From Brachionus manjavacas (taxonomy: Eukaryota > Rotifera > Eurotatoria > Ploima > Brachionidae): a stretch of 64,000 nt of DNA. A model generated the notes under the pieces. That model had not been told where the DNA came from and ran no database searches. It was given only the letters and a program-made list of their open reading frames with translations. Below are positions 27,201-64,000 of the stretch, piece after piece (position 1 is the first letter of the stretch; every line of letters starts with the position of its first letter). Where the stretch lies: NCBI GenBank assembly GCA_019054805.1, contig JAHQIY010000001.1:11546501-11610500 (forward strand), given 5' to 3'. A program made the translations under genes and the position numbers.

Positions 27201-28110
27201 CTACTTTTGGAATGGTACATGCTTTTGCGTTTAATAATTACCATATGTTGATTTGAAGTAATAAGCTCCAGGCTCCTTAAATCCTTAGCGATGGGGCTCG
27301 AGAGCCTAACAAGAGCCTAACTCATTTAATTTTCGATCTCTGATCATTCAGAGTAAAAAATTGTTTAAGTTTATATAAAGTCTGAATAGCTCAAATCTTA
27401 TTCTAATCTTAATATAAGCAGTGTGTGTAAAAGATGATAGCTAAATATTAATCTAAAGCTTGCCAATTTAAGAAATAATCAGCTGAAATTTATTTAATTA
27501 AATAAAATACCGTTCAGTGAATTAACCGTGAATTAGACTGGTTCCATGAGAGCTGACTTGATCGGCGCTATGCAAAAAACTCAGGCATATTTATGAGCTT
27601 TATTACGCAACTTTTAAAACTTAAAACAATAACCAAACAAACCATTCGACGATTTATTGAGATATTTAAATTGATTATTTTCTTATGGCTAATATTAAAA
27701 TATTCATCTTGTTTATATAATTTTAAATGTATTTGCATTATTTAAGCAAAAAATTGAAGATTGTTTTGATGAAATTCTTGGCCAATATCTTTATTGAATG
27801 AAGGGCTTCGAAACCTTTGTTTTTCCGAATATCTGCTTTCTTTCAACCAGTTTTGATTCATATTATTTTTTGAGATGGAGTTTTGCAAAACTTATTTCGA
27901 ATACTTGAATTCAAGATAAATCCAACAAAACATAAATGGACTAATTAGTAAAGAAAATCAATAATGGCTTTGAATCCTTTCAAGAAATCAGAAAAAAGGA
28001 AGAAAATCAAAGAAAAAATAAATAAATAGGGTTTTGTTAATTTTAAAAAATATTAAGAAAAATTTTCAATTTTTAAAAAAATTTTAATTTAATTTTTTTT
28101 TTTTTAATAT
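21260..28110. other. Long AT-rich gene desert
   Basis: Only low-complexity reading frames (for example a Lys/Phe/Ile-rich 82-codon frame at 26793-26545 and a 99-codon one at 26952-27251), which I judge to be chance. Slightly GC-richer patches at 23330-23640, 24720-24790 and 27250-27345 show no family I recognise. Confidence 0.5.
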
Positions 28111-28270
28111 TGAAAAAACCATTATGACAACAAATTAAAAAATTGAAATATTTTTAGAGTCGAAATCAAATCGACTTTTTAATAAAAATTATATAAAAGA
28201 CAAGAATAAAATCTCAATTGATTTTTCATTCTTGAGTTACATTTGGATTTTTTTAAAAACAAATTAATTT

Positions 28271-31020
28271 TCAAATAGAGCGTTGAATGCTTTCTGATTT
28301 GAAATTACAAACTCCAATATTTTCATCAAAAGATAAGCCACCAGGACACTGTTTTAGAAAAGCTGAATTATTGCTGCAATGCCAGAATGTTTTACAATTG
28401 TCAGGATTTTTGAACAATCCATTTGGTTCAGGGCAAGAAAAATCTAGATTGAAACAAAAAATATTTTAAATATTTTAAAAGAAAAATATCAGAATTAATT
28501 TTGTTTACTTTGCTTAGCTGAAAGCTTCGAAGGTACAGTGGACAAAGTACTAATTAAACTTGTTTTAACACCACCATTGAATAGTCTTGATTTCATTGCA
28601 CAAATCTTAAGCTGACTATCGAAAATTAAATTACCAGGACATTGCTTTAAATAGGCATAATCATTCGAACAATGCCAAAATTTATTTGAATCTTGAGCAT
28701 TTGAAAATAGTCCTGAAGGCTCTGGACATTTAAATTTATCATTCAGATTCGATTGAGTTGAATATGTTTGTGCTGTTGTTGTTTTTGTTCTTGCTGGCAT
28801 TGCAGATGTTGTAACATAATTTGGTACTGATGATGTTACTTTGAAATTTTGACAGTGAGACTTAAGAAGCATTAAAATTGATAAAGATTGATAAAGAAAT
28901 AAATGCTTTTATAAAATAAATTACTGGTTTGGTTTTAACACAAGATTGTTCATTTGAATTAAACCAAAAATTGTTCGGACACTTGACTGTTGCTATTGAA
29001 TTTGAAAATCCTTTCATACATACTCGGAAATATTGGCATCCACTTTGACTCTTAATGTACTTGTTTTCTCTGCCCGAACAATTGTCTTTAATTTAATTGA
29101 AGGTAAAAATTAGCCTTTTTTATTTAAAAACTGAATTAAATTAAAATTCAGACCATTTGGTAAATGAGAATGAGTGACAGAAGTTGGTTTAAATGATGAA
29201 GTTTGAGTATGATGATGGTTGGTTTGTTTGGTTGATGAAGCAAAAGTAATAGGTGCAGTAGACTGTTTGGTACTTAGAGAACATTGTGAATCACTGAGAA
29301 TATGATTCAATAATTTCATCAATGGATAAGATCCTTGGTCGCAAAAATTTCCTTTGAAATCATCGAAATCAATCTTTAAATTTGAATCAAATAATTTATC
29401 AATATTCAAAGTTAATAATTAAAGAAAAGAATATTAATGAAAATAAATTAAAAATAAAATTGATTTCAATTTTGGAAAACTTACGGCCCAAATCATTGCA
29501 CCTCCAAGACACTTGTCTTTAATGTAATTTGCTTTGATTACAATAGATTCTTGATTTTCATATCCGATCCATTCATTTCCATATGTTAAACCAACTGCTC
29601 CATGTTCGGTATCCACTTTTTCCACGAGATTATTTTCTTTGATAATTTGACAAATCTTTATTTGAAATTTTGAATTTTCTGAATTTAGAATTTAAGTAGA
29701 AAAAAAATTTTAAATTACTTCAAAGTAAGATAAAACTCCAGCCTCTTTGGTATATTGTCCAGCTTTCGAAGAGCCCATTGACGGTGAACCTATTTGATTT
29801 AGTTTCGAATTTTGTAATTTAAAACCTCTTCCGTAGAATGCTAATCCAAGTATCAATTTGTCTTTGGGGCAACCATTTTTCAACCAATAGTTCACTGCCC
29901 AGTCCTTTTTGTTTATTTTTTTTTTTAATATTACTTTATTTAATAAATTTTGATTTTGTTTCAATCTTACGGCATTTAAAGTATTCTCCCATGACATGTC
30001 ACCAATTTTAGGATACAATGCTGAGTGAAATCCTGTTTTGCTACTCCACGAACCATGAAACTTAAGTCAAAAAAATCAAAATTAAAAATTTTGTTAATTA
30101 ATAAAAAAATAACAATCGATTACATCATAGGCCATCAAATTGATAAAATCAACCGACTGACTTATCTTGTTTATTTCATAAGATGTGTCAATAGTTCCTT
30201 TGCCTGCTGAAACTGCAATCGATAATTCAAGACGGTTTTTGCCTGTCAAAGCTTCTCTATCAAAAGCGTGTCTCAGTTTCTTTGAGAAAAAAAATTAAAT
30301 CAAAAAGAAATCTATTTAGTTTCTATCAATTATGTTTTAAAATAAAACATCTTTTAATCTTGTTAATTCAAAAAAAGATAAAAAAGATAAAATACCTCAA
30401 GAAGTTGAGTAAATTGTGTTTTTTTAACAACAGGAAATTCCCAGTCAACATCCAAACCATCAAAATTGTATTTTCTCAAAAAAACAATTGAATTTTGAGC
30501 AAATTTTTGCATTGTATTATCACTTTCCACAACTTTAAAATCAAAATTAATGCAAAACAAAAAAGAGATAAACATGACGATAAAATTAAATTACCCGAAT
30601 TGAATCCACTTGAGCCTTGTGCCCAGCCACCAACAGCCAAAAGAATCTTTAACTTTGGATTGATCAATTTTAGAACCATTATTCGCTCATACATGCCCGG
30701 GCCATTGTCAATACCAACATCACTTTCTTCAGTATTTGCCAAAGAATAATTTTCAATTTTTGCAAATGCATAAACAACATGAGTGCACAATTTGGGATCA
30801 ATATCTTCCGGATAGAATTCAGCACCAGTTGGTCTTAATTGTGCCCAATTGGTAAAGTAACTTTATTGATAAATAAAGCAAAATTAATTAAAAAAAAAAA
30901 AACATTTAAAAAAGAAATAAAAAATGTTTACCAAATCTTTTTGAAATCAGCCCAACACCCATTAATCAAACTTCCAATTACAACAAATACCAACACAACT
31001 GTTTTTTTGTTCAAAAGCAT
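28271..31020 (-). CDS. Chitinase A: secreted GH18 with three CBM14 domains
   Basis: Eleven exons: 31020-30932, 30860-30595, 30532-30396, 30279-30124, 30060-29971, 29904-29719, 29655-29485, 29373-29154, 29085-28925, 28860-28509, 28443-28271; 2001 bases, 666 residues, all phases consistent. Signal peptide at about 1-24. GH18 domain at about 27-385: CYFTNWAQLRP start, catalytic DGLDVDWE with acid Glu150, MAYD at 213-216, GGAMIWA end. A Ser/Thr/His-rich linker and three Cys-rich chitin-binding (CBM14) modules follow: about 439-495, 536-585 and 613-660. It should hydrolyse chitin beta-1,4 bonds outside the cell, for example in cuticle, gut lining or prey. Intact and near-identical to chitinases B and C; its downstream homology with them stops near 28110 and its upstream homology near 31380. 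Confidence 0.9.
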
Positions 31021-31091
31021 GATTTGATCATTTATCTTACTTGGTCCCTTTGATTTTTATTTTCTGATGTGTTTCATCGAGTTTTTTAAAG

Positions 31092-31099
31092 TATTTATA
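31092..31099 (-). promoter_or_regulatory. TATA box of chitinase A
   Basis: TATAAATA on the minus strand, 72 bases upstream of the ATG and kept in all three copies. A hairpin (caacactaacc / ggtagtgttg) about 100 bases further upstream is also kept. Confidence 0.6.
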
Positions 31100-31947
31100 T
31101 TGTTGAACAGGAAACGCAAGACTTGGTTAAAAAACCACTGATCTCGAACTCCTGTCTAATAAAAGTTTTGTCAAACCCATTGCAACACTAACCAAAAAGT
31201 GCATGGTAGTGTTGAACAAATATTAATTAGCTCTTTCTTTTCTAATTGAAAGCTTATTGTTTGGCTTAAAGCATTTTGATACAAAACACCAAACACATGG
31301 TCATCTAAAGTTTACTGTCTCTATTTCAAATCTTTAACTATTTTGTCATTTTTTTTAATTAATTTTCAAGTTGATTTTTTTTGATTATAAAATTTTCAAT
31401 TTTTAATTTTAAAAATTTCATCAATTTTTGATTTTGAACAAAAGATTCATTTTATAAATACTAACTACCATTAATTTAAATTAATCACCTTTATTTTTTA
31501 ATCTAATTTATTAGTCTAATTTTTTTACATTCTTAACTTTATTTTAAGGATTTTACTAAAACTTTGACCCTTTATTTTTTAAAATTTCCTGACTCCGATT
31601 TTTTTTTGCAAAGCAAAAATATGCTTTTACTTCCTGGAGAATAACTAAACACATTTTTAGAAAGCTCGTTAAATTTTTTCAAGGAAAAAAGGAGCCAAGA
31701 GGAGGTCAGGTTTTTTAAAATCTAAAATTTTCACAAATAATAAAAATTTTGGAGGATTATTAGTTTAATTTTCAAAAAATAGAGAAAAATTCAAACTTAA
31801 TGATAAATTAAAGCTGTTACAAATATATTTTCTTAAATCTAAGCATTAAAAATTAAAATTTTTGATCGTTTTTTGTTGAATAAATGATTAAAAATAATTT
31901 CATTCAAAATTTTTTATTAAAATAAAAATTAGGTAATTTTATTTGTT

Positions 31948-34900
31948 TTAATTAGATTTCATTGTTTTTTTAATCCAGGGAAGGTACTCAAAAACATTAG
32001 TATAAACACCAAAACCTTTACACAACATACAAATAAAATTAATCTTTAATTTTTTTATTCAAAATACCATCACATTTTGATCTTCCATAGCTAACAATGC
32101 CAACTATATAGTAACGACCATTATTATAGATAAACAATGGGGACCCACTGTCACCCTTTTTAAATAAAATAGTTTTTTTCATTTGAAAACAAAGTTACTT
32201 ACCTGGCATGAATCTTTGATATCGCCGACTGAAATTCCAGCACTTTAAATTTAAAATAAGTATACTTTTTGCCAACCAAATTTTTAAATTTGTTACCAAA
32301 GCTGAGTTTTTCGCAAATTATAGAAACTACACTCAGAATTGTTTTTTATTTCTACAAATGTTTCTTGTAACTGAGAGGGGAATATTCCTAAAATAAGACT
32401 AAAGCAAAATTCACATTCTTTATTTGACTAACAAAAAACCTTGTATTGATATTTTGCCCTTAAGATATAAGATAAAAAGCAAGTTTTTTTTTAATTTAGA
32501 CTCATAAATTAAAATACTAAATCACATTGTCTAACAAACAAAATTAAAATTAGAAAGCATTCTTCTAATTAAATGATCCAAAATAAATTTTATCAATAAA
32601 TACTTAACGGTATTTAATCAAAATAAATTTAGATATAAAATACCTAAAATATTAATTAATGGAAACAAAAGAAAAAATTTACCCATCCAATTACGATGGC
32701 TTTTTTTCCCACATCGCCAACAAATTCATTTGGCAAACAAATCGATCCAACTGTTGATGAAAATTCAGCTCGAGTTTGCAGTTTAAATAAAGCTATATCA
32801 TTGTAATAATTTGTTGAATTATAATTAGGATGCTAAAATTTTCAATTAATTTAATAATAAAAGCAAATAAAATTTAAAAAAAACAAATCCTCAACAAGTA
32901 CTTTAAAAAATTTGAGAAGAAAGATGATAGCAAAAATGTGTAAATTTTAAAAATGTTTTGGACCAGCCATTATTTTCTCCTTTTACTTAAGTTAAAAAAA
33001 AGTGCTTGAAATCGTTACCTAACATCAAAAAAAATAGCTGGTGGACAGTGCCGTAAATTAATTTTTCACATCAAATCATTTTTTTTAATCATCACATCAT
33101 TTTTTTATAACTTCCTCATTTTAGCTGATATCAGAAAAATAAAAAAAAATATATTTTAAAATGTTTTTAAAAACTAATATTAGATATTATTTTAAAAAAA
33201 AAATTTTCTTTTTTACAAATATATACATCAATGTATCTACAGTAAAAATAAAACTGTAGGGACAAAGATTTGTTTAAGGCAAAGATGCATCCATTTTGAA
33301 GAAAGTAACTAGCGGAGTACCACAAGGATCCGATCTTGGACCAATCCTATTCATTCTTCTTATCAATGATCTCCTTGATAGCTTCAACAGTTTCTGTCTT
33401 GAAAAACCGATAACGTTAATAGTAGATAGAAATATCTTTACTGCAGATATCTCTACTATCACTACTAAATAATCTTTTAAACAATTTTAAATCCAGAGTT
33501 GTTTAAAAGTCACAAGTCTCAAAACAAGTCCAAGTCCGGAATTTTTTTTTTTTTTCAAGAAGAATATAATGACTGAAAAATTCTTTAAGTATTTTAAAAT
33601 AAAAAATTGTCTTAATCTTGATGACTCGACGTTCCGATATTCCAAAGTCAATTTTTTCTCCGGTTTTAAAAATTATTCAAATAAATCTTCCTGTTTTTCC
33701 ATAAAGAGTAATTATTCAGGAATTTTCACGTTCAATGAATGTGAAGGCACAAATGAAATTTCTTCCGTTCAAGGAAATGATAATTTTGCCGTCCCAGGTG
33801 GTTATCATGGAAGCTAAATGAGTGTTGGACTTTTTTTAAAAAAATAAAAATAAAAGTCTTTGACTTGGACTTTTGAAAATACAAAAATACAAAAATAAAA
33901 AAATAAATAAATAAAAAAATTTAATGACTTGGACTTTAATTTGGGACTTATAAACAACACTGTTTAAATCTATGATCTTTTATTAAAAAAAAAGAATCTT
34001 CTGAATATATTCTGAATCTACACTGGATTTTTGGTCCAAAACATTCACTAGTTTAAATTGAGAAAGCTTGCTTTTCAGGTAATTAAAAACTTGTATATTC
34101 ATTAAGATTTAATCTAAAAATTTAATCTTTAAGTGTAATATTTGTCTTTTCAAGTTTCATAAAGGTGATTTTTTTCTAAAAAATAAATATTTTTCAAATA
34201 TTTTTTAATTGTGTTTAGAATTATGCATAAATTTAATGATTCTCTATAAATGTTAGACTCGATTTCATTAAAAAAATCATAAAATGATTTTTTTTAACAC
34301 TTTTTATCGAAGGACGGCATTGTGAATTTTCATAGAACAATTCCAATACAAAATTTAATTTCCTAACAAAAATTTTGATTTTTACCACAGATTTTTCTGA
34401 AAGTTTCAAAAGGTAAAATAAACAATGTTTCATTTAAAAGTTATGTTGAAAAAAATTTGTGAATAACTTGATTATTTTTGATCGAATTGTATGTTAATTA
34501 AGAATTGTAGTAACCACTTAATTCAAAATTATTTAAGTAGCGATGAAAGAATATATTTAAATAAAACAAATTTACAAATTAGTAGTAGTAGTAGTAGTTA
34601 AAAAAAGAAAAAAAAAAAAGAAAAAAACAAAATAGAAAAGATCATCGAGACAAAAAAAAAAACAAAAAATATTTATTTGATCATGTTTCCTGAGTTAATT
34701 GAAAAAAATTTCTTTTTGTTGGCTTCAGTGAAATATATTTTAGTTCAAATCATATAAAGCTCAATTTTTTCAGTTAAAATTAATGGAATAGAAAACATTT
34801 TTTGGAAGGTTTGCATGAAAATTCACAATGACTTGAAGGATTTTCATAAAGGTTTTTTAAAGGATTATAGTCAAACTGCTATTTATTTTTGATTTATCCT

Positions 34901-37011: not shown

Positions 37012-37965
37012 AACAGTTTTAATTGATATAAGATTTAAGATAGATTCATCGTTTAAAATCCTTTCGAAAATATTCAGATGAAAAATAATTTAAATTTATA
37101 AAAAGATTTTATTTTCATTTTTTTTTAATTTTTTTAGTATAATTTATTTTTATTTGATTTTGAAAAAATCATAATGACAACAAATTAAAAAATTGATATA
37201 TTTTTTAGAGTCGAAATCAAATCGACTTTTTAATAAAAATTATAAAAACAAAAACAAAAAAGGAAATCAAAAAATAAAATTTTATTTCTTTAAAATAAAC
37301 TTAACATTCCTTTTATCCAAATACAAGTAAGTGAAAATTTAAAAGGTAGATCTTTGTCTTATCATATCGAGGAAATTGCAAACATTGAAAAACTGGGACA
37401 AAATTTTTGATAATCACTAGATAGAAACCTTAAACATCCTCTTCTAAACAAAACAAACGATATTAAATGCCTGATTCATTTAGGCTGTGATTGATAAAAA
37501 AATTTGATTCAAAAAATAAAGAATAAAAATTTTAAATGTTTAAAGGCTAATAAACAGGCTATGATATAAATAATAAACCAAGTTTTAGAAAGAAACTTTT
37601 TTATACCAATTAACTTGTAAAATTTTGATTTTAAACAACTGAAATTGAATTTTTATTTAAACCCTGTCTAATTAATTATTTTGGATAAAAGGTAACGAAA
37701 GTTAATTTTCCTGGATTTCTGCTTTCTTTCAACGAGTTTTAATTGATATAAGATTTAAGATAGATTCATGGTTTAAAATCCTTCGAAAAAATTCAGATGA
37801 AAAATAATTTAAATTTATAAAAAGATTTTATTTTCATTTTTTTTTAATTTTTTTAGTATAATTTATTTTTATTTGATTTTGAAAAAATCATAATGACAAC
37901 AAATTAAAAAATTGATATATTTTTTAGAGTCGAAATCAAATCGACTTTTTAATAAAAATTATATA
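37012..37965. repeat. ~230-bp direct repeat pair downstream of chitinase B
   Basis: Bases about 37012-37245 and 37735-37965 are nearly identical, from gttttaattgatataagatt to a small hairpin agtcga-aatcaaa-tcgact and ttaataaaaattata. The second is the natural 3' flank of chitinase B (single copies follow A and C); the first is an extra copy about 725 bp away. Confidence 0.75.
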
Positions 37966-38040
37966 AAAGACAAGAATAAAATCTCAATTGATTTTTCATT
38001 CTTGAGTTACATTTTGATTTTTTTTTAAATTAATTCATTT

Positions 38041-40808
38041 TCAAATAGAGCGTTGAATGCTTTCTGATTTGAAATTACAAACTCCAATATTTTCATCAAA
38101 AGATAAGCCACCAGGACACTGTTTTAGAAAAGCTGAATTATTGCTGCAATGCCAGAATGTTTTACAATTGTCAGGATTTTTGAACAATCCATTTGGTTCA
38201 GGGCAAGAAAAATCTTGATTGAAACAAAAAATAATTATTTTAAATATTTTCAAAGAAAAATATCAGAATTAATTTTGTTTACTTTGCTTAGCTGAAAGCT
38301 TCGAAGGTACAGTGGACAAAGTACTAATTAAACTTGTTTTAACACCACCATTGAATAGTCTTGATTTCATTGCACAAATCTTAAGCTGACTATCGAAAAT
38401 TAAATTACCAGGACATTGCTTTAAATAGGCATAATCATTCGAACAATGCCAAAATTTATTTGAATCTTGAGCATTCGAAAATAGTCCTGAAGGCTCTGGA
38501 CATTTAAATTTATCATTCAGATTCGATTGAGTTGAATATGTTTGTGCTGTTGTTGTTTTTGTTCTTGCTGGCGTTGCAGATGTTGTAACATAATTTGGTA
38601 CTGATGATGTTACTTTGGCATTTTGACAGTGAGACTTAAGAAGCATTAAAATTGATAAAGATTGATAAAGAAATAAATGCTTTTATAAAATAAATTACTG
38701 GTTTGGTTTTAACACAAGATTGTTCATTTGAATTGAACCAAAAATTGTTTGGACACTTGACTGTTGCTATTGAATTTGAAAATCCTTTCATACATACTCG
38801 GAAATATTGGCATCCACTTTGACTCTTAATGTACTTGTTTTCTCTGCCCGAACAATTGTCTTTAATTTAATTGAAGGTAAAAATTAGCCTTTTTTATTTA
38901 AAAACTGAATTAAATTAAAATTCAGACCATTTGGTAAATGAGAATGAGTGACAGAAGTTGGTTTAAATGATGAAGTTTGAGTATGATGATGGTTGGTTTG
39001 TTTGGTTGATGAAGCAAAAGTAATAGGTGCAGTAGACTGTTTGGTACTAAGAGAACATTGTGAATCACTGAGAATATGATTCAATAATTTCATCAATGGA
39101 TAAGATCCTTGGTCGCAAAAATTTCCTTTGAAATCATCGAAATCAATCTTTAAATTTGAATCAAATAATTTATCAATATTCAAAGTTAATAATTAAAGAA
39201 AAGAATATTAATGAAACGAAATTAAAAATAAAATTGATTTCAATTTTGGAAAACTTACGGCCCAAATCATTGCACCTCCAAGACACTTGTCTTTAATGTA
39301 ATTTGCTTTGATTACAATAGATTCTTGATTTTCATATCCGATCCATTCATTTCCATATGTTAAACCAACCGCTCCATGTTCGGTATCCACTTTTTCCACG
39401 AGATTATTTTCTTTGATAATTTGACAAATCTTTATTTGAAATTTTGAATTTTCTGAATTTAGAATTTAAGTAGAAAAAAAATTTTAAATTACTTCAAAGT
39501 AAGATAAAACTCCAGCCTCTTTGGTATATTGTCCAGCTTTCGAAGAGCCCATTGACGGTGAACCTATTTGATTTAGTTTCGAATTTTGTAATTTAAAACC
39601 TCTTCCGTAGAATGCTAATCCAAGTATCAATTTGTCTTTGGGGCAACCATTTTTCAACCAATAGTTCACTGCCCAGTCCTTTTTGTTTTTTTTTATTTTT
39701 TTTTTTAATATTACTTTATTTAATAAATTTTGATTTTGTTTCAATCTTACGGCATTTAAAGTATTCTCCCATGACATGTCACCAATTTTAGGATACAATG
39801 CTGAGTGAAATCCTGTTTTGCTACTCCACGAACCATGAAACTTAAACAAAAGTCAAAAAAATCAAAATTAAAAATTTTGTTAATTAATAAAAAAATAACA
39901 ATCGATTACATCATAGGCCATCAAATTGATAAAATCAACCGACTGACTTATCTTGTTTATTTCATAAGATGTGTCAATAGTTCCTTTGCCTGCTGAAACT
40001 GCAATCGATAATTCAAGACCGTTTTTGCCTGTCAAAGCTTCTCTATCAAAAGCGTGTCTGAGTTTCTTTGAGAAAAAAATTAAATCAAAAAGAAATCTAT
40101 TTAGTTTCTATCAATTATGTTTTAAAATAAAAGATCTTTTAATCTTGTTAATTCAAAAAAAGATAAAAAAAAGATAAAATACCTCAAGCAGTTGAGTAAA
40201 TTGTGTTTTTTTAACAACAGGAAATTCCCAGTCAACATCCAAACCATCAAAATTGTATTTTCTCAAAAAAACAATTGAATTTTGAGCAAATTTTTGAATT
40301 GTATTTTCACTTTCCACAACTTTAAAACCAAAATTAATACAAAACAAAAAAAAGGATAAACATGACGATAAAATTAAATTACCCGAATTGAATCCACTTG
40401 AGCCTTGTGCCCAGCCACCAACAGCCAAAAGAATCTTTAACTTTGGATTGATCAATTTTAGAACCATTATTCGCTCATACATGCCCGGACCATTGTCAAT
40501 ACCAACATCACTTTCTTCAGTATTTGCCAAAGAATAATTTTCAATTTTTGCAAATGCATAAACAACATGAGTACACAATTTGGGATCAATATCTTCCGGA
40601 TAAAATTCAGCACCAGTTGGTCTTAATTGTGCCCAATTGGTAAAGTAACTTTATTGATAAATAAAGCAAAATAAATTAAAAAAAAAAAAACATTTAAAAA
40701 AGAAATAAAAATTGTTTACCAAATCTTTTTGAAATCAGCCCAACACCCATTAATCAAACTTCCAATTACAACAAATACCAACACAACTGTTTTTTTGTTC
40801 GAAAGCAT
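38041..40808 (-). CDS. Chitinase B: secreted GH18 with three CBM14 domains
   Basis: Exons 40808-40720, 40648-40383, 40319-40183, 40065-39910, 39840-39751, 39678-39493, 39429-39259, 39147-38928, 38859-38699, 38634-38283, 38213-38041: the same 11 lengths as chitinases A and C, 666 residues, intact catalytic DGLDVDWE. Differences are few: it starts MLSNKK where the others have MLLNKK, reads ESENTIQKF where they read ESDNTMQKF, and its last intron ends CAAG instead of CTAG. Same predicted role as chitinase A. It forms the left half of the inverted pair around VMP1. Confidence 0.9.
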
Positions 40809-40879
40809 GATTTGATCATTTATCTTACTTGGTCACTTTGATTTTTATTTTCTGATGTGTTTCATCGAGTTTTTTAAAG

Positions 40880-40887
40880 TATTTATA
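40880..40887 (-). promoter_or_regulatory. TATA box of chitinase B
   Basis: TATAAATA, same spacing to the ATG as in the other two copies. Confidence 0.6.
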
Positions 40888-41203
40888 TTGTTGAACAGGA
40901 AACGCAAGACTTGGTTAAAAAACCACTGATCTCGAACTCCTGTCTAATAAAAGTTTTGTCAAACCCATTGCAACACTAACCAAAAAGTGCATGGTAGTGT
41001 TGAACAAATATTAATTAGCTCTTTCTTTTCTAATTGAAAGCTTATTGTTTGGCTTAAAGCATTTTGATACAAAACACCAAACACATGGTCATCTAAAGTT
41101 TACTGTCTCTATTTCAAATCTTTAACTATTTTGTCATTTTCTTTAATTTATTTCCAAGTTGATTTTCTTTTTCAAAATGTAAAAAAAATAATTAAAGACT
41201 TAT

Positions 41204-41455
41204 TATTGTTAAAATTGTAATTCATTATTATTCTTTTTACTAAATTCATTTTATTTCTCAAAATTGTAATAAAATTAATGCAAGTAAGTTAATAAAGGTA
41301 TTATCTGTCGGTCAGATTCACCTAACTCAAAGAAGCTTCATTTTCGAATAAAGTTGAATTAGAAAACGCCAGTTATGGTAGAAGAAATATGCTGTATAAA
41401 TTTGTTTATTTTAAAAAAAATTTTTTTAGATGATATCGTTTATTTAGTAGAAGAA
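41204..41455. repeat. ~250-bp insertion in the left arm (or deletion in the right)
   Basis: The right arm reads gacttatatacatttacag straight through; here gacttat and atacatttacag are separated by about 250 bases without clear inverted ends, coding sequence or target duplication. Content is AT-rich with one GC-richer patch (ctgtcggtcagattcaccta). Confidence 0.6.
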
Positions 41456-41869
41456 TATACATTTACAGATTTTATCATTCAAATTTTTCTAAATTTTTAT
41501 TATACGCACAAATTTTTTAAATAAAATTGTTTCAAAATAAACTTAAGAAAATAAACTGCAATTAATAAATAATATGGTATTATTTATTTCAAAAAATATC
41601 TCTTGGGTGATGAAGAAAAAAAATTGAATAAATGATGAATAAATTGGAGCATAAGTTTAACTTTCTGTAATGAATAAGCTTGCATTTAAAAAAAACCAAC
41701 TTGAATAAAAATTTATAAAATTATTGATACACATTTTAATGCCTATCATAAATAAATTTTTTTTCTTTTACTTTTTTGAATTTAAGCTTTTAATCTTACA
41801 TTTGAAAAAATTTAAGCCTAAAAGAATTTTGGAACAAAAATTTGTTCAAGTCCATAGAATAAACAGGAA

Positions 41870-43035
41870 AATATATAAAGGAAAAATCTTTGACGATCTT
41901 CTAGCCATTCCAATTAGTCAACCAGATGTGATGTTTACATTAGCCCCCTTGATCCTGTCATCCGTTCTTTTCGCCAGCCAGACGTATTGGAACAGTTATT
42001 TATGCTCCTTGTTAACTTAAACGCTCATGGTTAAGTTAATAAACTTACCAGTCATATCGACAAAGATGTCGATATTTCACAGTCACAAGTAATAAGAGAT
42101 TTCTTATAAATAAGGTACAAAATAATTTAAACGAGCCTATCTCTCTTTTAGAAATTAAAACTGCCTTAAAAAACCAAACCTAATAGTAAAAAGTTTACCT
42201 ACAGAGACTTAATTTGAAATAAGTCTACTCTTTAAAATGAATTTGAAAGAGCAAAGTGATCTAAGTCATCAATACCCTATTAAAGCAGGAGTTACACAAG
42301 GGTCAGTAATTATTCTACCTCTTTTTAGCATATTTATCAATGAGATACCAAAGAGAAACAAAACAAAGTGCCAATACCCTCTTCTTTTTTGCAGATGATT
42401 TAGCTACTCATTTTATTTTCAAAAAGAAATGAAATCTTGAAAACATGATAAATACCTGATAAGTACTTAAAAGAAATTGAAAGTTGGCTTTTCAAATGGA
42501 AAGCGAAAATTTTTATTGAAAAGTCATATGATCTTCAATAAAAAAACTAATTTTAAAATTAATCTTGACCTTAATATTAATGGTAGCAATTTAAGTAAAG
42601 AGGAAAAAGTCAAATTCTTAGGTCAATTTTGGACATTTTTTGGAGCCACATTGGTCAACACAAAACTTACATTTAGTCCAATGGTGGATGAATTAAAAGA
42701 GCGCCGTAATTCAAGGTTTTATATAATAAAATATCTCTTGAATAAGAAATGGGGATTTAAACCAAAAACTTGAGGTAATCTTTAAAAATCTTTGAAAGGA
42801 TCAATCTCGGATTATGCTTTTCCTTGTTTAAATTCAATCGCAGAAACTAACATCAAAAATATGATGCCTCTTCCAATATAATGCACCAAGCGGCTTTCAA
42901 AAAATTAAACTACTAACAGTCTCAAATCGACTTTTTGAGATGAGTGAGAGATATATCAAGGCAGGATTGAGTCATTCTGTTCCATTGTTCGTCAGACTTG
43001 TGGAAGAATATAGAGAGGGTTTAAATAAACTTATT
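41870..43035 (+). mobile_element. LINE fragment between the inverted arms
   Basis: Broken plus-strand translation shows NKVQNNLNEPISLLEIKTAL, then a GVxQGxVIxPLLF-like block, FFADDLATHFIF (RT catalytic FADD), EIESWLFKWKAKIFIEKSY, TFSPMVDELKERRNSRFYII and a shared tail ending near 43030. Many stops and frameshifts. At 42623-42656 it contains a stretch resembling VMP1 instead of the expected LINE bases (see findings). Followed by the LINE tail stem-loop at 43086. Confidence 0.75.
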
Positions 43036-43135
43036 TATTTTTTATTTTATTTTATCTTATCTAGCTTTATTTTTTTTCAATATTTTTATTCCTAAGGAGC
43101 ATTAGCTCGGCACCGATTAACAAATGAACAAGTAA
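43036..43135 (+). repeat. LINE 3' tail with stem-loop
   Basis: Directly after RT-derived sequence: AT-rich linker, then ttcctaaggagcattagctc and ggcaccgattaacaaatgaa. Stem GAGC-atta-GCTC. This copy ties the stem-loop unit to the LINE. Confidence 0.65.
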
Positions 43136-43195
43136 AATGTCACCTTTTTAATGTAACAAAAAAGAGTTTTCTTTAAGTACGAGTAAGGCTTTTAA

Positions 43196-43317
43196 CGTAA
43201 TTATCCGAATTTAGTGACATATCATTAAATTTTTTAGTGACATGTCACTTTAGAATCATTTACATGTTATAACAGAGTGTCTAAATTGACTAAATTCACT
43301 AAATTCGGATGATTACG
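43196..43317. mobile_element. 122-bp MITE flanked by TTAA
   Basis: Inverted ends CGTAATTATCCGAATTTAGT and CGTAATCATCCGAATTTAGT differ at one base. TTAA stands on both sides, as for piggyBac/Kolobok-type insertion. Inside is a short repeat of tagtgacat. Lies about 470 bp upstream of the VMP1 start. Confidence 0.65.
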
Positions 43318-43789
43318 TTAACTTCAATACAAAAAGTCTAAGGGCGAAAAATTAAAGTTAATTTCGCTTTTGAACAAAAAAATATTTTATTAAAAATAAA
43401 ACTAAAACAATCGGACTTTAATTCCTAAATTCATGTCACTATTCGTTTTCATCTATTTGTTCATTCAGTCTTAAACCTAATCATAAACAACTTTTTTTTT
43501 TTCAAATTAAAATATTATTATTTCTAAATTGACTTTTCAAAACTCAGCTCATTCTTAGCCATCAAAGCTTTGCCAATGTTTTGAGAAAAAAATCACTTTG
43601 CTTTAATTTCTCTTCGCTTATGGCGCTATTTTTTTTTTGCTTACTGAGACCTTTTGATAAAATACTTCAAATTAATACTAAAGCTAACACGTCATCTTAA
43701 AAGTTTTATTTTTTTTAGTTTAATAAAGAAAAAATTGTTTCGGAAATAATCAAGTAGTTTCTAATATTGACCAAATATCAACTGGTAGG

Positions 43790-45067
43790 ATGTCTTCTGG
43801 TTCACAGACAAGTCAAGTAAAGCATAGAAAATCAGACGTAAAGAGTAAAAAAAAAGCGGAAAAAAAATCCTCACCCAAGGCCAGACCTGCGGTAAAGACT
43901 CACTTTGACAAGGAAGAAATGGCCAAATATGTCATCTGGCGCCGTCCATTTCAAACAACTTATTTTTTTGTTCTCGAGCTGTTTGAAATTATATTTTATT
44001 ATTTTTGTAAATTATTAACTTATCGTAAATTAGTTCTAAGTTTTGTGCTGCTATCATCTTTGATGACCAGTGGTTTTTACATTCAAGGATCGCATTTACC
44101 TGTTCTAATCTATTTGCGTAAAAAATTTCTCTGGTGCATGTACTGGGTGGGACTCGGAGTGGCTTCGTCAATAGGTCTTGGCACCGGACTGCACACATTT
44201 TTGCTATATTTAGGCCCATTTATTGCTCAAGTGACTCTAGCTGCATACGAGTGCCAAAGTCTGGATTTTCCGGAGCCTCCCTATCCAGAAGACATTATCT
44301 GCCCAAACTCGACCGACACCTCTTCGAGTTTAATCACCATTTTGTCAATTATGTCCAAAGTTCGTCTAGAGTCTTTCATGTGGGGCGCAGGCACTGCCAT
44401 CGGGGAGCTACCGCCCTATTTTATGGCGCGTGCAGCTGCCCTCTCCGGCAAAGAAAATCACCAAAGTGAAGAATCTGACAATGAAGAACTGGAAGAGTTC
44501 GAACATTTGCTAGAAGCAGAAAAAGATGGATCAATCAAGCTAAGTATGCTGGACAAGATTAGATTAAGTGTTTTTAAGATAATCAAAAAAGTCGGATTCA
44601 TCGGTATCTTGTTGTGTGCCTCGATACCTAATCCGCTTTTCGATCTGGCTGGTATAACCTGTGGCCATTTTTTGGTAAAATTTTGGACGTTTTTTGGAGC
44701 CACATTGATCGGAAAAGCAATCATCAAAATGCATATTCAAAAAATGTTTGTCATTTTCTTATTTAGCCAGCACCATTTGGACAATTTGTTCGGATTGTTG
44801 GCCAATGTGCCTTATGTTGGCTCAAAAATTCAGCCTTTGTTCGAGGAATGGCTGACCGCCGAAAAAACAAAGCTGCACAGAACACGCGGAAGCAATGAGG
44901 GTTTGCATGGAAGCGAAAGCATTTTATCATGGATACTGGGAAAAATAGTTTTGCTGATGATTCTTTTTTTTGTTGTTTCGATTGTCAATTCTTTGGCACA
45001 ACAACGTTATAAACGTTTAAGTAGCCATCATGCCGAAACCAACAAGAAAAAAATTGCGAATGATTGA
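43790..45067 (+). CDS. VMP1: Vacuole membrane protein 1, intronless
   Basis: Single reading frame of 425 codons, close to the roughly 400 residues usual for VMP1. A Lys-rich N-terminus is followed by several hydrophobic segments and the family landmarks ELPPYFMARAAALSG (about 205-219), an acidic loop, SIPNPLFDLAGITCGHFLV (about 278-296) and FWTFFGATLIGKAIIKMHIQ (about 297-316); a last membrane helix lies near 385-405. VMP1 is an ER multispanning protein of the VTT/DedA group, a phospholipid scramblase needed for autophagosome formation and ER contact-site remodelling. A T-rich acceptor-like site (tttttttag at about 43711-43719) lies 70 bases upstream of the ATG, and AATAAA follows at about 45183. 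No coding introns, unlike its neighbours. It stands in the middle of the inverted chitinase duplication. Confidence 0.95.
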   Translation: MSSGSQTSQVKHRKSDVKSKKKAEKKSSPKARPAVKTHFDKEEMAKYVIWRRPFQTTYFFVLELFEIIFYYFCKLLTYRKLVLSFVLLSSLMTSGFYIQGSHLPVLIYLRKKFLWCMYWVGLGVASSIGLGTGLHTFLLYLGPFIAQVTLAAYECQSLDFPEPPYPEDIICPNSTDTSSSLITILSIMSKVRLESFMWGAGTAIGELPPYFMARAAALSGKENHQSEESDNEELEEFEHLLEAEKDGSIKLSMLDKIRLSVFKIIKKVGFIGILLCASIPNPLFDLAGITCGHFLVKFWTFFGATLIGKAIIKMHIQKMFVIFLFSQHHLDNLFGLLANVPYVGSKIQPLFEEWLTAEKTKLHRTRGSNEGLHGSESILSWILGKIVLLMILFFVVSIVNSLAQQRYKRLSSHHAETNKKKIAND

Positions 45068-45867
45068 GTTGATTTTTTTGAAAATTTTTATTTAATTTTT
45101 TTGTTTTCAATATTTGGACTCAATTTCTCTCTTTGTTAGATGCTTTTGTTTACCGAAAAATTTTTAAAAATTGAATAATTCAAATAAATAGATTCCCATT
45201 TAGTTATTTTTTTAAACTCATTCAAATTCAAAAAAGTAAAAGAAAAAAAATTTATTTATGTTAGGCATTCAAATGTGTATCAATAATTTTATTAATTTTT
45301 ATTCAAGTTAGTTTTTTTTAAATGCAAGCTTATTCATTAGAGAAAGTTAAACTTATGCTCCAATTTATTCATCATTTATTCAATTTTTTTTCTTCATCAC
45401 CCAAGAGATATTTTTTGAAATAAATAATACCATATTATTTATTAATTGCAGTTTATTTTCTTAAGTTTACTTTGAAACAATTTTATTTAAAAAAATTTGT
45501 GCGTATAATAAAAATTTAAAAAATTTGAATGATAAAATCTGTAAATGTATATAAGTCTTTAATTATTTTTTTTTCATTTTGAAAAAGAAAATCAACTTGA
45601 AAATTAATTAAAGAAAATGACAAAATAGTTAAAGATTTGAAATAGAGACAGTAAACTTTAGATGACCATGTGTTTGGTGTTTTGTATCAAAATGCTTTAA
45701 GCCAAACAATAAGCTTTCAATTAGAAAAGAAAGAGCTAATTAATATTTGTTCAACACTACCATGCACTTTTTGGTTAGTGTTGCAATGGGTTTGACAAAA
45801 CTTTTATTAGACAGGAGTTCGAGATCAGTGGTTTTTTTAACCAAGTCTTGCGTTTCCTGTTCAACAA

Positions 45868-45875
45868 TATAAATA
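45868..45875 (+). promoter_or_regulatory. TATA box of chitinase C
   Basis: TATAAATA 72 bases upstream of the ATG, with the same upstream hairpin (near 45752-45787) as in copies A and B. Confidence 0.6.
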
Positions 45876-45946
45876 CTTTAAAAAACTCGATGAAACACAT
45901 CAGAAAATAAAAATCAAAGTGACCAAGTAAGATAAATGATCAAATC

Positions 45947-48704
45947 ATGCTTTTGAACAAAAAAACAGTTGTGTTGGTTTTTGCTGTAATTGGAAGTTTG
46001 ATTAATGGGTGTTGGGCTGATTTCAAAAAGATTTGGTAAACAATTTTTATTTCTTTTTTAAATGTTTTTTTTTTTTATTTATCTTGTTTTATTTATCAAT
46101 AAAGTTACTTTACCAATTGGGCACAATTAAGACCAACTGGTGCTGAATTCTATCCGGAAGATATTGATCCCAAATTGTGCACTCATGTTGTTTATGCATT
46201 TGCAAAAATTGAAAATTATTCTTTGGCAAATACTGAAGAAAGTGATGTTGGTATTGACAATGGTCCGGGCATGTATGAGCGAATAATGGTTCTAAAATTG
46301 ATCAATCCAAAGTTAAAGATTCTTTTGGCTGTTGGTGGCTGGGCACAAGGCTCAAGTGGATTCAATTCGGGTAATTTAATTTTATCGTCATGTTTATCTC
46401 TTTTTTGTTTTGCATTAATTTTGATTTTAAAGTTGTGGAAAGTGATAATACAATGCAAAAATTTGCTCAAAATTCAATTGTTTTTTTGAGAAAATACAAT
46501 TTTGATGGTTTGGATGTTGACTGGGAATTTCCTGTTGTTAAAAAAACACAATTTACTCAACTGCTTGAGGTATTTTATCTTTTTTTATCTTTTTTTGAAT
46601 TAACAAGATTAAAAGATGTTTTATTTTAAAACATAATTGATAGAAACTAAATAGATTTCTTTTTGATTTAATTTTTTTTCTCAAAGAAACTCAGACACGC
46701 TTTTGATAGAGAAGCTTTGACAGGCAAAAACCGTCTTGAATTATCGATTGCAGTTTCAGCAGGCAAAGGAACTATTGACACATCTTATGAAATAAACAAG
46801 ATAAGTCAGTCGGTTGATTTTATCAATTTGATGGCTTATGATGTAATCGATTGTTATTTTTTATTAATTAACAAAATTTTTAATTTTGATTTTTTTGACT
46901 TTTGTTTAAGTTTCATGGTTCGTGGAGTAGCAAAACAGGATTTCACTCAGCATTGTATCCTAAAATTGGTGACATGTCATGGGAGAATACTTTAAATGCC
47001 GTAAGATTGAAACAAAATCAAAATTTATTAAATAAAGTAATATTAAAAAAAAAAAAAAAAAAACAAAAAGGACTGGGCAGTGAACTATTGGTTGAAAAAT
47101 GGTTGCCCCAAAGACAAATTGATACTTGGATTAGCATTCTACGGAAGAGGTTTTAAATTACAAAATTCGAAACTAAATCAAATAGGTTCACCGTCAATGG
47201 GCTCTTCGAAAGCTGGACAATATACCAAAGAGGCTGGAGTTTTATCTTACTTTGAAGTAATTTAAAATTTTTTTTCTACTTAAATTCTAAATTCAGAAAA
47301 TTCAAAATTTCAAATAAAGATTTGTCAAATTATCAAAGAAAATAATCTCGTGGAAAAAGTGGATACCGAACATGGAGCGGTTGGTTTAACATATGGAAAT
47401 GAATGGATCGGATATGAAAATCAAGAATCTATTGTAATCAAAGCAAATTACATTAAAGACAAGTGTCTTGGAGGTGCAATGATTTGGGCCGTAAGTTTTC
47501 CAAAATTGAAATCAATTTTATTTTTAATTTCGTTTCATTAATATTCTTTTCTTTAATTATTAACTTTGAATATTGATAAATTATTTGATTCAAATTTAAA
47601 GATTGATTTCGATGATTTCAAAGGAAATTTTTGCGACCAAGGATCTTATCCATTGATGAAATTATTGAATCATATTCTCAGTGATTCACAATGTTCTCTT
47701 AGTACCAAACAGTCTACTGCACCTATTACTTTTGCTTCATCAACCAAACAAACCAACCATCATCATACTCAAACTTCATCATTTAAACCAACTTCTGTCA
47801 CTCATTCTCATTTACCAAATGGTCTGAATTTTAATTTAATTCAGTTTTTAAATAAAAAAGGCTAATTTTTACCTTCAATTAAATTAAAGACAATTGTTCG
47901 GGCAGAGAAAACAAGTACATTAAGAGTCAAAGTGGATGCCAATATTTCCGAGTATGTATGAAAGGATTTTCAAATTCAATAGCAACAGTCAAGTGTCCGA
48001 ACAATTTTTGGTTTAATTCAAATGAACAATCTTGTGTTAAAACCAAACCAGTAATTTATTTTATAAAAGCATTTATTTCTTTATCAATCTTTATCAATTT
48101 TAATGCTTCTTAAGTCTCACTGTCAAAATGCCAAAGTAACATCATCAGTACCAAATTATGTTACAACATCTGCAATGCCAGCAAGAACAAAAACAACAAC
48201 AGCACAAAAATATTCAACTCAATCGAATCTGAATGATAAATTTAAATGTCCAGAGCCTTCAGGACTATTTTCAAATGCTCAAGATTCAAATAAATTTTGG
48301 CATTGTTCGAATGATTATGCCTATTTAAAGCAATGTCCTGGTAATTTAATTTTCGATAGTCAGCTTAAGATTTGTGCAATGAAATCAAGACTATTCAATG
48401 GTGGTGTTAAAACAAGTTTAATTAGTACTTTGTCCACTGTACCTTCGAAGCTTTCAGCTAAGCAAAGTAAACAAAATTAATTCTGATATTTTTCTTTGAA
48501 AATATTTAAAATATTTTTTGTTTCAATCTAGATTTTTCTTGCCCAAAACCAAATGGATTGTTCAAAAATCCTGAAAATTGTAAAACATTCTGGCATTGCA
48601 GCAATAATTCAGCTTTTCTGAAACAGTGTCCTGGTGGCTTATCTTTTGATGAAAATATTGGAGTTTGTAATTTCAAATCAGAAAGCATTCAACGCTCTAT
48701 TTGA
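45947..48704 (+). CDS. Chitinase C: secreted GH18 with three CBM14 domains
   Basis: Exons 45947-46035, 46105-46370, 46433-46569, 46687-46842, 46911-47000, 47071-47256, 47320-47490, 47602-47821, 47890-48050, 48115-48466, 48532-48704; 2001 bases, 666 residues. Domains as in chitinase A: signal peptide about 1-24, GH18 with DGLDVDWE at 143-150, MAYD at 213-216, CBM14 modules at about 439-495, 536-585 and 613-660. Distinct residues include AQKYST in the linker (AQTYST in A and B) and PKPNGLFKNPEN in the last module (PEPNGLFKNPDN in A and B). The intron before exon 47071 carries a poly-A run of nearly 20. Intact and presumably active. Confidence 0.9.
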
Positions 48705-49642
48705 AAATGAATTAATTTAAAAAAAAATCAAAATGTAACTCAAGAATGAAAAATCAATTGAGATTTTATTCTTGTCTTTTATATAATTTTTATTAAAAAG
48801 TCGATTTGATTTCGACTCTAAAAAATATATCAATTTTTTAATTTGTTGTCATTATGATTTTTTCAAAATCAATTAAAAATAAATTATACTAAAAAAATTT
48901 AAAAAAAATGAAAATAAAATCTCTTTATAAATTTAAATTATTTTTCATCTGAATTTTTTCGAAAGGATTTTAAACCATGAATCTATCTTAAATCTTATAT
49001 CAATTAAAACTCGTTGAAAGAAAGCAGAAATCCAGGAAAATTAACTTTCGTTACCTTTTATCCAAAATAATTAATTAGACAGGGTTTAAAAAAAAATTCA
49101 ATTTCAGTTGTTTAAAATCAAAATTTTACAAGTTAATTGGTATAAAAAAGTTTCTTTCTAAAACTTGGTTTATTATTTTATATCATAGCCTGTTAATTAG
49201 CCTTTAAACATTTAAAATTTTTATTCTTTATTTTTTGAATCAAATTTTTTTATCAATCACAGCCTAAATGAATCAGGCATTTAATATCGTTTGTTTTGTT
49301 TAGAAGAGGATGTTTAAGGTTTCTATCTAGTAATTATCAAAAATTTGTCCCAGTTTTTCAATGTTTACAATTTCCTCGATATGATAAGACAAAGATCTAC
49401 CTTTTAAATTTTCACTTACTTGTATTTGGATAAAAGGAATGTTAAGTTTATTTTAAAGAAATAAAATTTTATTTTTTGATTTCCTTTTTTGTTGATTTAT
49501 CAGTACGTTTTCAGATTTTTTAAATTTAACCAAAAATAAATTAAAATCTGCTAACTCTCAATTTTAATATTCAAATTGTATGAATTTTTAGTTATTTTAT
49601 TTAGATCAAGAACATTTTTTTTAAAGCTTTGGAAAATAAGAA

Positions 49643-51214
49643 ATGCCTCCAAAAAAGAATTCAAAGACAGCACTTTATTTTTTTGTAAGGGAGAAAGTTG
49701 AAAAAGGAGAAGCATCAGGTAGCTTTCAAGAAGCTATGGGACAAGTTTATCAAGAGTATTTTTTTTAATTTAAGTTAATTTATCTAATTTTTGAACAGAT
49801 GGAAGAGTTTGTCCAAAAAAGATAAAGAACCTTATGAAAAAAAATTTAAAGAGTTCAAGGAATCACTTAGACAAGAAAAAAGTAACCTTTAGATTTTAAA
49901 TTTTAGATTTTTGACTTAAAATTTTAAGTGGTATTGACACCATCTAGCTTAAAGCAAGAGTATCTGAGCGAAACAACTTCTTTCAATTCTCGGTCATCTG
50001 CTCTAGTCTCGCAGATAATCAACCATTTTGAAAGTTTGAAAAAAAAAGGATTGGCAGCAAACAAATCTGCTATCGACTTGGTAAAAGAGCAAAAATGGTA
50101 CATTGTAAAATTTCAAACATTTTGTAAATGTGATGAAAACACTTTGGACAACTATGAATTCGGTTCAAACCACTATTATGTCCTTGCTGAAGTAGGTGCA
50201 GTTGAATATAGTCTTGAGAATGGCATCACTAAAGAGTTTAATGCATTTATTCCGCCAAACAAAATACCACTAGGGTACAGATCGCTATGCATGGACTCGT
50301 CTAAAGAAAATCAAATTCCTTTGTCGAATTTTAGCAAGTTAAATTACACCATTCCAGAGATTTACGCTCAATTGGAAGAGTTTCTCAGGCCAAATGAAAC
50401 TAACAATAATTTTGTACCAATTTTTTGCATGAGCAAAGACTTGGACGAGACAAAATTTGGATTAGAATTTTTGGAATACGAGACCAATTCTCCTGATACT
50501 CGTTGTCTTTATGATAAAATATTCGATCTAGAGTCTTTGTTGATTCAACTTACTGGTTATTTCAATGTAAATTTGTCCTATAATTCAGCTCGGGAAATTC
50601 TGACCTCCTATTCATTTGACTATGCGTCAAATAGCAGATGCAAATTTCATGAAGAAACGGGTGTCCATTGTGGATTTTGCGCTCTTGGTTGTGTCAAAAA
50701 AGCTGTCTTTTTGATTTCGGAATATATTGGTCCAATTTTTGAGATCAATCTAACTGAGCGACACTTGCCGGTACAGACACCAGTTGGAACAGTAATTCAC
50801 AATACCGATTCGGAGCCGAGAGCAAAAAGAAACCAGAGACCATTTCAGTATGGCAAAAGACCGCATGAAAACGACCAACAGAGCACTACAGAGATTTACA
50901 TGACTCAAAGAACTTCAAATTCTGGCAGTTCCAGCATGATCTCTGTTGACATTCAGAAACACAGTCAAAATATTAGGACAAATAGGAGACTTGTAGCTCT
51001 GGAGACGGCTTCAGAGATGGACACGAACTCAGTAGTGTCTGATAAATATGAGCCTGATGCAGAGGGCTGGACTGTTGTTAAAGATAAAAACCAAAAAGAA
51101 ACTGATAATATGAGCGAATTGAGTGCCAATAATTCTAATTTAAGTGAATCTACTTTTAAGACAGTCAATCCAAGTAGATACATCGGAAGAGGACGAGCCT
51201 TTAATAGAAATTAA
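49643..51214 (+). CDS. mael: Maelstrom, piRNA-pathway HMG-box/MAEL-domain protein
   Basis: Three exons: 49643-49755, 49799-49881, 49929-51214; 493 residues, introns of 43 and 47 bases. Residues about 4-62 form the HMG-box-like domain (TALYFFVREKVEKGEASGSF; WKSLSKKDKEPYEKKFKEF), typical of Maelstrom. Residues about 130-340 are the MAEL domain, an RNase H-like fold: GAVEYSLENGITKEFNAFI, IPISNF-like IPLSNF, and the metal-site pattern CKFHEE (Cys303, His306) with later cysteines at 313 and 316. The C-terminal 150 residues are polar and low-complexity, ending Gly/Arg-rich (RYIGRGRAFNRN). Maelstrom acts in nuclear and perinuclear piRNA silencing of transposons in animal germ lines. The third exon has no methionine of its own near its start; the codon split over the intron supplies ATG. 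Confidence 0.93.
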
Positions 51215-61975: not shown

Positions 61976-62465
61976 GAAATTACTAAAAAAAATTTTAAAA
62001 TTAAAATATAAATTTATTCACAATTTCATAAGTTTTTTTATCCGAATCAATATTTACAAGTTTTTGGAAAAAATAAAAATCTAACTTATCTATTTTTTTA
62101 AACCCTGAGGGTTATGAGCAAAAGTGTCTCCAATTTTTGGAGGGTGGGAGATAAGTCGACCATTTTGATGAAAATCATTTAAAAAGAGAAAAAAAAATAT
62201 TTTTAAAAGTTTATTTAAACGGCTAACTTTAATTTAATGCAAAAACTTGAAAAAAAAAACAAAACTTGAAGACATAAAAATCGTTTTTATATAATTAGAT
62301 ATCCCAAAGTCACTTTGTGCAATAATAAGGCAGCAAATTTATCCCCGACGGCCGAAAAATTCAATCCAACCATGGTGACAAAAAAAGTTGAAAATTTTTA
62401 AAAAAATTTTACATCAACAAATATTCTCAAAATAAACAACAACAACAAAACTAGATCAATAAAGA

Positions 62466-62522
62466 AATAATAATAATAATAATAAAAATAACAATGAAAG
62501 TAAAAAAAAATAATAATAATAT
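62466..62522. repeat. (AAT)n microsatellite, two tracts
   Basis: Tandem aat/ata units at about 62469-62485 and 62509-62520. Confidence 0.85.
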
Positions 62523-62639
62523 TTGAGAAAATAGAATTAGCTTAAAGTTTTAAGTTCAATAAATTTATAGAGCTTCTGGACAGTACCAAAATAGAAAAAA
62601 ACAAAATAGAAAAAAATACGAAATATTCCCAGTAGTTGG

Positions 62640-62916
62640 AACAAAAACGTAGAATAACGCCCCTTGAAAGCATCATGCACACACACACTCACACACATTT
62701 ACTCACTCACGGAATCATCATCAAGTACATACCATTTCTGAGTGGTACCAAAAAAAAGAAAACATCAGCTTGGTGACTAAATACTTTGTGCTTAAGGAGA
62801 CTAATCTAGACACATCTTTTTAGGAAAATTTATTGCGTAAGCCATAGAAAAAAATGAAGATTGAGGGAACAAACGAGATTGACTAAAACAAAGACGGCAT
62901 GCCAATTTGGTCCAGA
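62640..62916 (-). other. Probable 3' UTR of the BEN-domain gene
   Basis: Directly downstream of the stop; less AT-rich than the region beyond 62600, with a (CA)n tract at 62679-62698. Minus-strand A/T-rich signals occur but no single poly(A) site stands out. Confidence 0.35.
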
Positions 62917-63963: not shown

Positions 63964-64000
63964 TTTGGCTTCTTGCTTTAGGCTTTTGTTCGGGGTCGTG

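Follow-up and report, generated by a model that had tools for sequence, protein, structure and literature searches.

A chitinase gene in three copies, two of them inverted around a VMP1-like gene, in the rotifer Brachionus manjavacas

A chitinase gene is present in three copies on contig C1 of the Brachionus manjavacas assembly, all of them inside the window, by which we mean the whole 64-kb stretch of DNA that was analysed. One pair of copies stands in direct and two pairs stand in inverted relation, so that the locus is a triplication and more than a two-armed palindrome. The inverted arms described in the initial annotation are real, but that picture was incomplete because a third chitinase copy at 28062-31382 had been overlooked. 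What is observed at the locus comprises the three copies with their open frames, about equal divergence between them, purifying selection, a drop in identity at one end of the first copy (c1), and the sequences of the junctions. We explain these observations by a three-copy amplification in which c1 was converted, the inverted left arm (c2) was derived from the right arm (c3), and VMP1 was a bystander, a reading that we hold with a probability of roughly 65%. Under this scenario, amplification would have brought a GH18-CBM14 chitinase gene, its active-site stretch intact, to three copies in a span of 21.4 kb, and the body of an older tandem copy, c1, would have been overwritten by conversion at approximately the same time as the inverted copy was laid across VMP1. 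The copy between VMP1 and a Maelstrom-like gene, c3, would probably be the source, and c2 the inverted derivative, which template-switching repair would have produced and joined to an old LINE. The three gene products would then have been kept by purifying selection, with extra dosage of one enzyme as the most likely effect.

Arrangement of the three copies

The left arm, c2 (37253-41783, minus strand, CDS 40808-38041), and the right arm, c3 (45224-49493, plus strand, CDS 45947-48704), each contain a chitinase gene of 11 exons together with its flanks. The borders proposed earlier (37255..49492) were right within 2 bases, and the two near-identical arms of about 4.4 kb that had been described turn out to measure 4,531 bp on the left and 4,270 bp on the right. 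Both genes are transcribed away from the centre, as had been annotated, and the centre itself, previously given as 3.5 kb holding VMP1, is 3,440 bp long and contains one single-copy VMP1-like gene. By alignment the arms are 99.04% identical, with 41 substitutions over 4,265 ungapped positions and 14 indels. The divergence is uniform along their length, also in the flanks that are absent from c1, with identities of 99.13% in both the core and the outer 3′ flank and of 98.17% in the inner 5′ flank past the indel. Most of the difference in arm length is due to one 251-bp stretch at 41204-41454, which is found in the left arm only and was perhaps deleted from the right arm. A repeat was considered as the identity of this stretch and ruled out, because a genome search with 281 bp around it returned only the stretch itself and the LINE copies that we compared had no match to it. 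The outer flanks of the two arms have no homology to each other (z 0.3).

The third copy, c1 (28062-31382, minus strand, CDS 31020-28271, 11 exons, 666 aa), lies about 6 kb to the left of the left arm and on the same strand, which makes it a direct repeat of that arm; the members of this direct pair are about 9.8 kb apart. According to BLAST in a self-comparison of the window, c1 is 97.8% identical to c2 and 98.1% identical to c3, and the corresponding values over ungapped positions are 98.40% and 98.58%. When 1,501 bp of the chitinase unit served as query against the whole assembly (61 contigs, 114 Mb), 11 matches came back, of which c1, c2 and c3 reached 98-100% and the others were weaker. 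The two longest of the weaker matches, at 67-68% identity, are also located on this contig, at a distance of 0.7 Mb.

Two further features were noticed around c1. Between c1 and c2, at 33486-33995, there is a roughly 500-bp repeat that has inverted ends and at least 85 genomic matches, itself included (40 of 1768 candidates scored). Just upstream of c1, at 31930-32180 on the minus strand, a frame resembles the C-terminal part of a trypsin-like serine protease, with a GDSGSP stretch that was read by eye.

The arms are reverse-complementary homologous blocks on one chromosome with a gene in each, and a gene-bearing inverted repeat of this kind is an already known type of structure. Gene-bearing palindromes have been described in several parthenogenetic animals, where, in the sections of the report consulted, few genes are affected (PMC7953838). 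Those palindromes share with the present locus the homologous, reverse-complementary gene blocks on one chromosome; unlike them, it carries a single gene in each arm plus a directly oriented third copy, whereas the published cases, in the same sections, were found by MCScanX colinearity on annotated genomes. No title listed in our searches of the rotifer literature dealt with this locus, which we do not take to mean that it is absent from print. The locus offers a datable case of the amplification of an enzyme gene: copies in both orientations are packed into 21 kb, and the junctions can still be read.

Product, age and selection of the chitinase genes

The gene models were predicted by GT-AG splicing of the DNA alone. 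All three copies have the same 11 exons with GT-AG introns and 666 uninterrupted codons, 24 of which differ among the copies, and the exon-for-exon match noted earlier between the chitinases of the two arms is thus confirmed, with no stop or frameshift in either. The c2 protein contains a GH18 catalytic domain (PF00704, E 1.1e-92, 311.5 bits against a cut-off of 29.6) that covers positions 3-317 of the 317 in the profile, and three stretches match the chitin-binding peritrophin-A domain, CBM14 (PF01607, E 1.4e-25). Its N-terminus looks signal-like by eye, and among solved structures it is closest to those of chitotriosidase (best E 3.2e-106). The stretch FDGLDVDWEFP occurs at residue 142 in all three copies and aligns to FDGLDLDWEYP of chitotriosidase; it retains the motif DxxDxDxE, which we take to be the catalytic stretch of GH18. 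All three copies thus encode a predicted and apparently intact GH18 chitinase with CBM14, which may be secreted.

How old are these copies? The synonymous divergence (dS, Nei-Gojobori) is 0.0246 between c1 and c2, 0.0222 between c1 and c3, and 0.0222 between c2 and c3; all three pairs of gene bodies are separated by much the same distance. The recent origin suggested in the initial annotation is well supported by these values of about 0.02 and by the identity of the arms. Similarity also extends into the region upstream of the start codon, where 360 bp are nearly the same in the three genes.

The three copies are under purifying selection. For this analysis the majority base was taken as the ancestor, and the same changes were placed at random. 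The 25 coding changes comprise 14 synonymous and 11 nonsynonymous ones, against an expected 19.0 that alter the protein, 1.9 of them to stops (P 0.0003 for 11 or fewer). Because of this deficit of nonsynonymous changes, all three genes have probably been useful since they separated, and an increased dosage of the enzyme would be the most likely working effect, with the benefit of dosage argued from the selection on the products.

Probable gene conversion of c1

We compared c1 with the arms along its length. The third copy helps to tell the age of a duplication from gene conversion. Without the last 210 bp, c1 and c2 are 98.97% identical. Within the last 210 bp, at the 3′ end of c1 (28062-28270), their identity drops to 89.95%, while c2 and c3 remain 99.05% identical to each other there. 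Changes specific to c1 occupy 20 of 211 ungapped columns in this 3′ end and 16 of 3106 elsewhere (Fisher P 1.4e-15, with the cut placed after the sites had been seen), and changes between c2 and c3 show no excess in the same region (P 0.71). Further out in the 3′ flank of c1, a decayed homologous block at 27747-27863 is 76.8% identical to c2 over 112 ungapped positions; its score of 58 was reached by none of 300 dinucleotide shuffles (z 7.7), and the alignment of the block to c3 is slightly longer, at 78.6%. The 3′ end of c1 and this block are separated by about 200 bp of c1 and about 80 bp of c2 that align poorly. On the 3′ side, the gene body of c1 is therefore closer to c2 and c3 than its homologous flank is. 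The simplest reading of this pattern points to c1 as an old tandem copy whose gene body would have been overwritten by gene conversion, with conversion as the presumed cause of the drop.

A related arrangement is known from the hsp70 clusters of Diptera, which, in the portion of the study available, contain inverted pairs that evolve in concert, with a homogenised gene body and decaying flanks (PMC3071340). Both systems comprise near-identical genes in inverted and direct orientation, a homogeneity that falls with distance from the coding sequence, and purifying selection. The present locus differs from the account given there in the gene family and in its unrelated centre gene, and conversion is deduced here from one genome, not from shared polymorphism.

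Could the three copies have arisen as recent duplicates with no conversion at all? In that case c1 would have been copied at the same time as the others, and its 3′ end would have landed beside a related older fragment. The dS values of 0.022-0.025 for all pairs agree with this, as do the absence of significant mosaicism in the core and the abrupt stop of c1 at its 5′ end, beyond which (past 31382) its flank has no homology to the flanks of c2 and c3 (z 0.4 and -0.1). For the same reason the drop in identity is visible on one side of c1 only, which counts against conversion. On the other hand, c1 continues past the gene into collinear homology, first at 90% and further out at about 77%, which is easier to understand if an older copy was already in place, and we consider simple triple duplication unlikely.

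A mosaic of conversion tracts within the gene was also looked for and dropped, and no tract was mapped: runs tests inside the core were not significant (P 0.20-0.32 in four versions, with few variable sites and little power). When the whole core including the c1 end was used, the runs tests gave P 0.031 and 0.042. With regard to the gene conversion proposed in the initial annotation, the idea is supported for c1 against the arms, by deduction from the sequence, and is not demonstrable for one arm against the other, as their divergence is even. The two arms show no sign of conversion beyond a simple recent duplication.

The VMP1-like centre, its possible inversion and the arm junctions

The gene in the centre is a single-exon frame on the plus strand (43790-45067) with a VTT domain and one genome match. 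Its E value against the Pfam entry VTT_dom is 4.1e-6, and its score of 27.7 bits lies under the curated cut-off of 33.9; no credible match to the protein was found among solved structures. From its motifs we take the gene to be VMP1-like, in agreement with the earlier assignment. The centre includes about 2 kb of sequence upstream of the gene and 156 bp past its stop, so that the VMP1-like gene would move as a whole if the centre were inverted. Upstream of it lies a short MITE-like element of 130 bp (43192-43321) with 26-bp terminal inverted repeats and at least 70 genomic matches (40 of 155 candidates scored).

Recombination between inverted repeats leads to inversion of the sequence between them and not to its deletion, while recombination between direct repeats leads to deletion or duplication. 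The loss of VMP1 by recombination of the arms, which had been put forward earlier, is not an expected product of inverted arms, and we rejected it in favour of inversion. For the direct pair c1/c2, deletions or duplications would be expected instead, in the sequence on the left side of VMP1. A flip of VMP1 between the arms is possible in theory.

Is the locus an active site of recombination, with VMP1 flipping in the population and mutual conversion of the arms? Arms of more than 4 kb at 99% identity speak for this, and a comparable human arrangement is polymorphic: at FLNA-EMD, inverted repeats flank unrelated genes, and the inversion, as cited in the parts of PMC8719250 consulted, is found in 33% of females and 11% of males. 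Both loci have unrelated gene content between two inverted repeats. They differ in that the inversion polymorphism at FLNA-EMD is documented in that source, whereas one arrangement from one assembly is at hand here, and in that the amplified genes here lie in the repeats themselves. However, the assembly contains a single arrangement with a single VMP1 match, and the even divergence of the arms, including the flanks not shared with c1, is sufficiently explained by a simple recent duplication. Therefore, we regard ongoing flipping with mutual conversion of the arms as improbable. Should VMP1 occur in both orientations, a small animal genome would offer here a natural inversion locus; if not, the locus represents a recent and mostly ordinary expansion of a gene family.

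Which arm, then, is the derived one? On its inner side the left arm meets a decayed LINE-like relic (41785-43136, plus strand), whose left edge lies at the arm border. We presume that it is a LINE with a reverse-transcriptase remnant, a name based on a FADD-containing frame. The relic has at least 99 genomic matches (40 of 2926 candidates scored), which are 72-81% identical in long pieces. One other copy, L019, and three of the five copies compared with it reach 167-198 bp past the left edge of the relic, and the other two start nearby. Since its divergence far exceeds that of the arms, the relic was probably cut by the left arm; the edge may also be an ordinary 5′ truncation, given the two copies that start near the same place.

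The outer border of the left arm is marked by a fragment, X′ (37015-37259, minus strand), which lies just outside the arm and is a copy of about 230 bp of 37735-37981 in the 3′ region of the gene. It differs from c2 by 2 substitutions in 229 positions and from c3 by 5 in 230, which makes it about as young as the arms. A remnant of an older copy, as a BLAST identity of 95-96% might have indicated, was rejected in view of just 2 and 5 substitutions in about 230 bp. X′ could also be a later local duplication. No comparable debris was seen at the borders of the right arm, which is placed between the VMP1-like gene and an open frame with a Maelstrom domain (49928-51214, plus strand; PF13017, E 2.3e-25) that adjoins the arm outside the repeat. 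With possible scars at each of its two junctions, c2 is probably the derived arm. We infer that c3 was probably the source from which c2 arose via template-switching repair, where both the direction and the mechanism are read from the junction sequences. Against this direction stands the 251-bp stretch, which must have been lost later from c3 if c3 was the source.

The LINE relic carries a further possible trace of template switching. A 43-bp insert in it (42614-42656, plus strand) resembles the VMP1 segment 44667-44710, which is 2 kb away on the same strand. The local score of 56 between insert and segment compares with a maximum of 38 in 300 first-order Markov randomisations. The insert is missing from the other LINE copies in the alignment, and in all 13 other LINE loci that were examined the resemblance was weaker, the best of them scoring 32 against 60 for the insert itself. 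We suggest that it is probably a templated insertion.

A bolder version of these events would be that one burst of template switching generated the inverted arm, X′ and the overwriting of c1, each with a divergence of about 1-2%, in a place where an earlier switch had left the VMP1 piece in the LINE relic, and that VMP1 is now found in both orientations in the population with conversion tying the three chitinases together; we consider this whole chain quite doubtful. An assembly artefact, either a misjoin or duplicated haplotypes, is highly improbable: the arms have opposite orientations and different outer flanks with differences (41 substitutions, 14 indels) scattered over them, which makes a collapsed or duplicated haplotype unlikely, and the centre gene has one genome match, the copies number three and not two, and the contig is 12.1 Mb long.

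A scan of the 64-kb window with Rfam gave no matches. At its right end, 62001-64000 has a GC content of 0.42, compared with 0.21-0.33 in the other 2-kb bins, and spans an open frame of 360 aa with no Pfam match at E 0.01. In the whole genome the GH18 family has 98 matches, many of them single exons, which form several clusters. One GH18 cluster (G000:C12:1232680-1261532) has a spacing of about 9.2 kb, and the two members of it that we examined are 98.6% identical over 1,911 bp.
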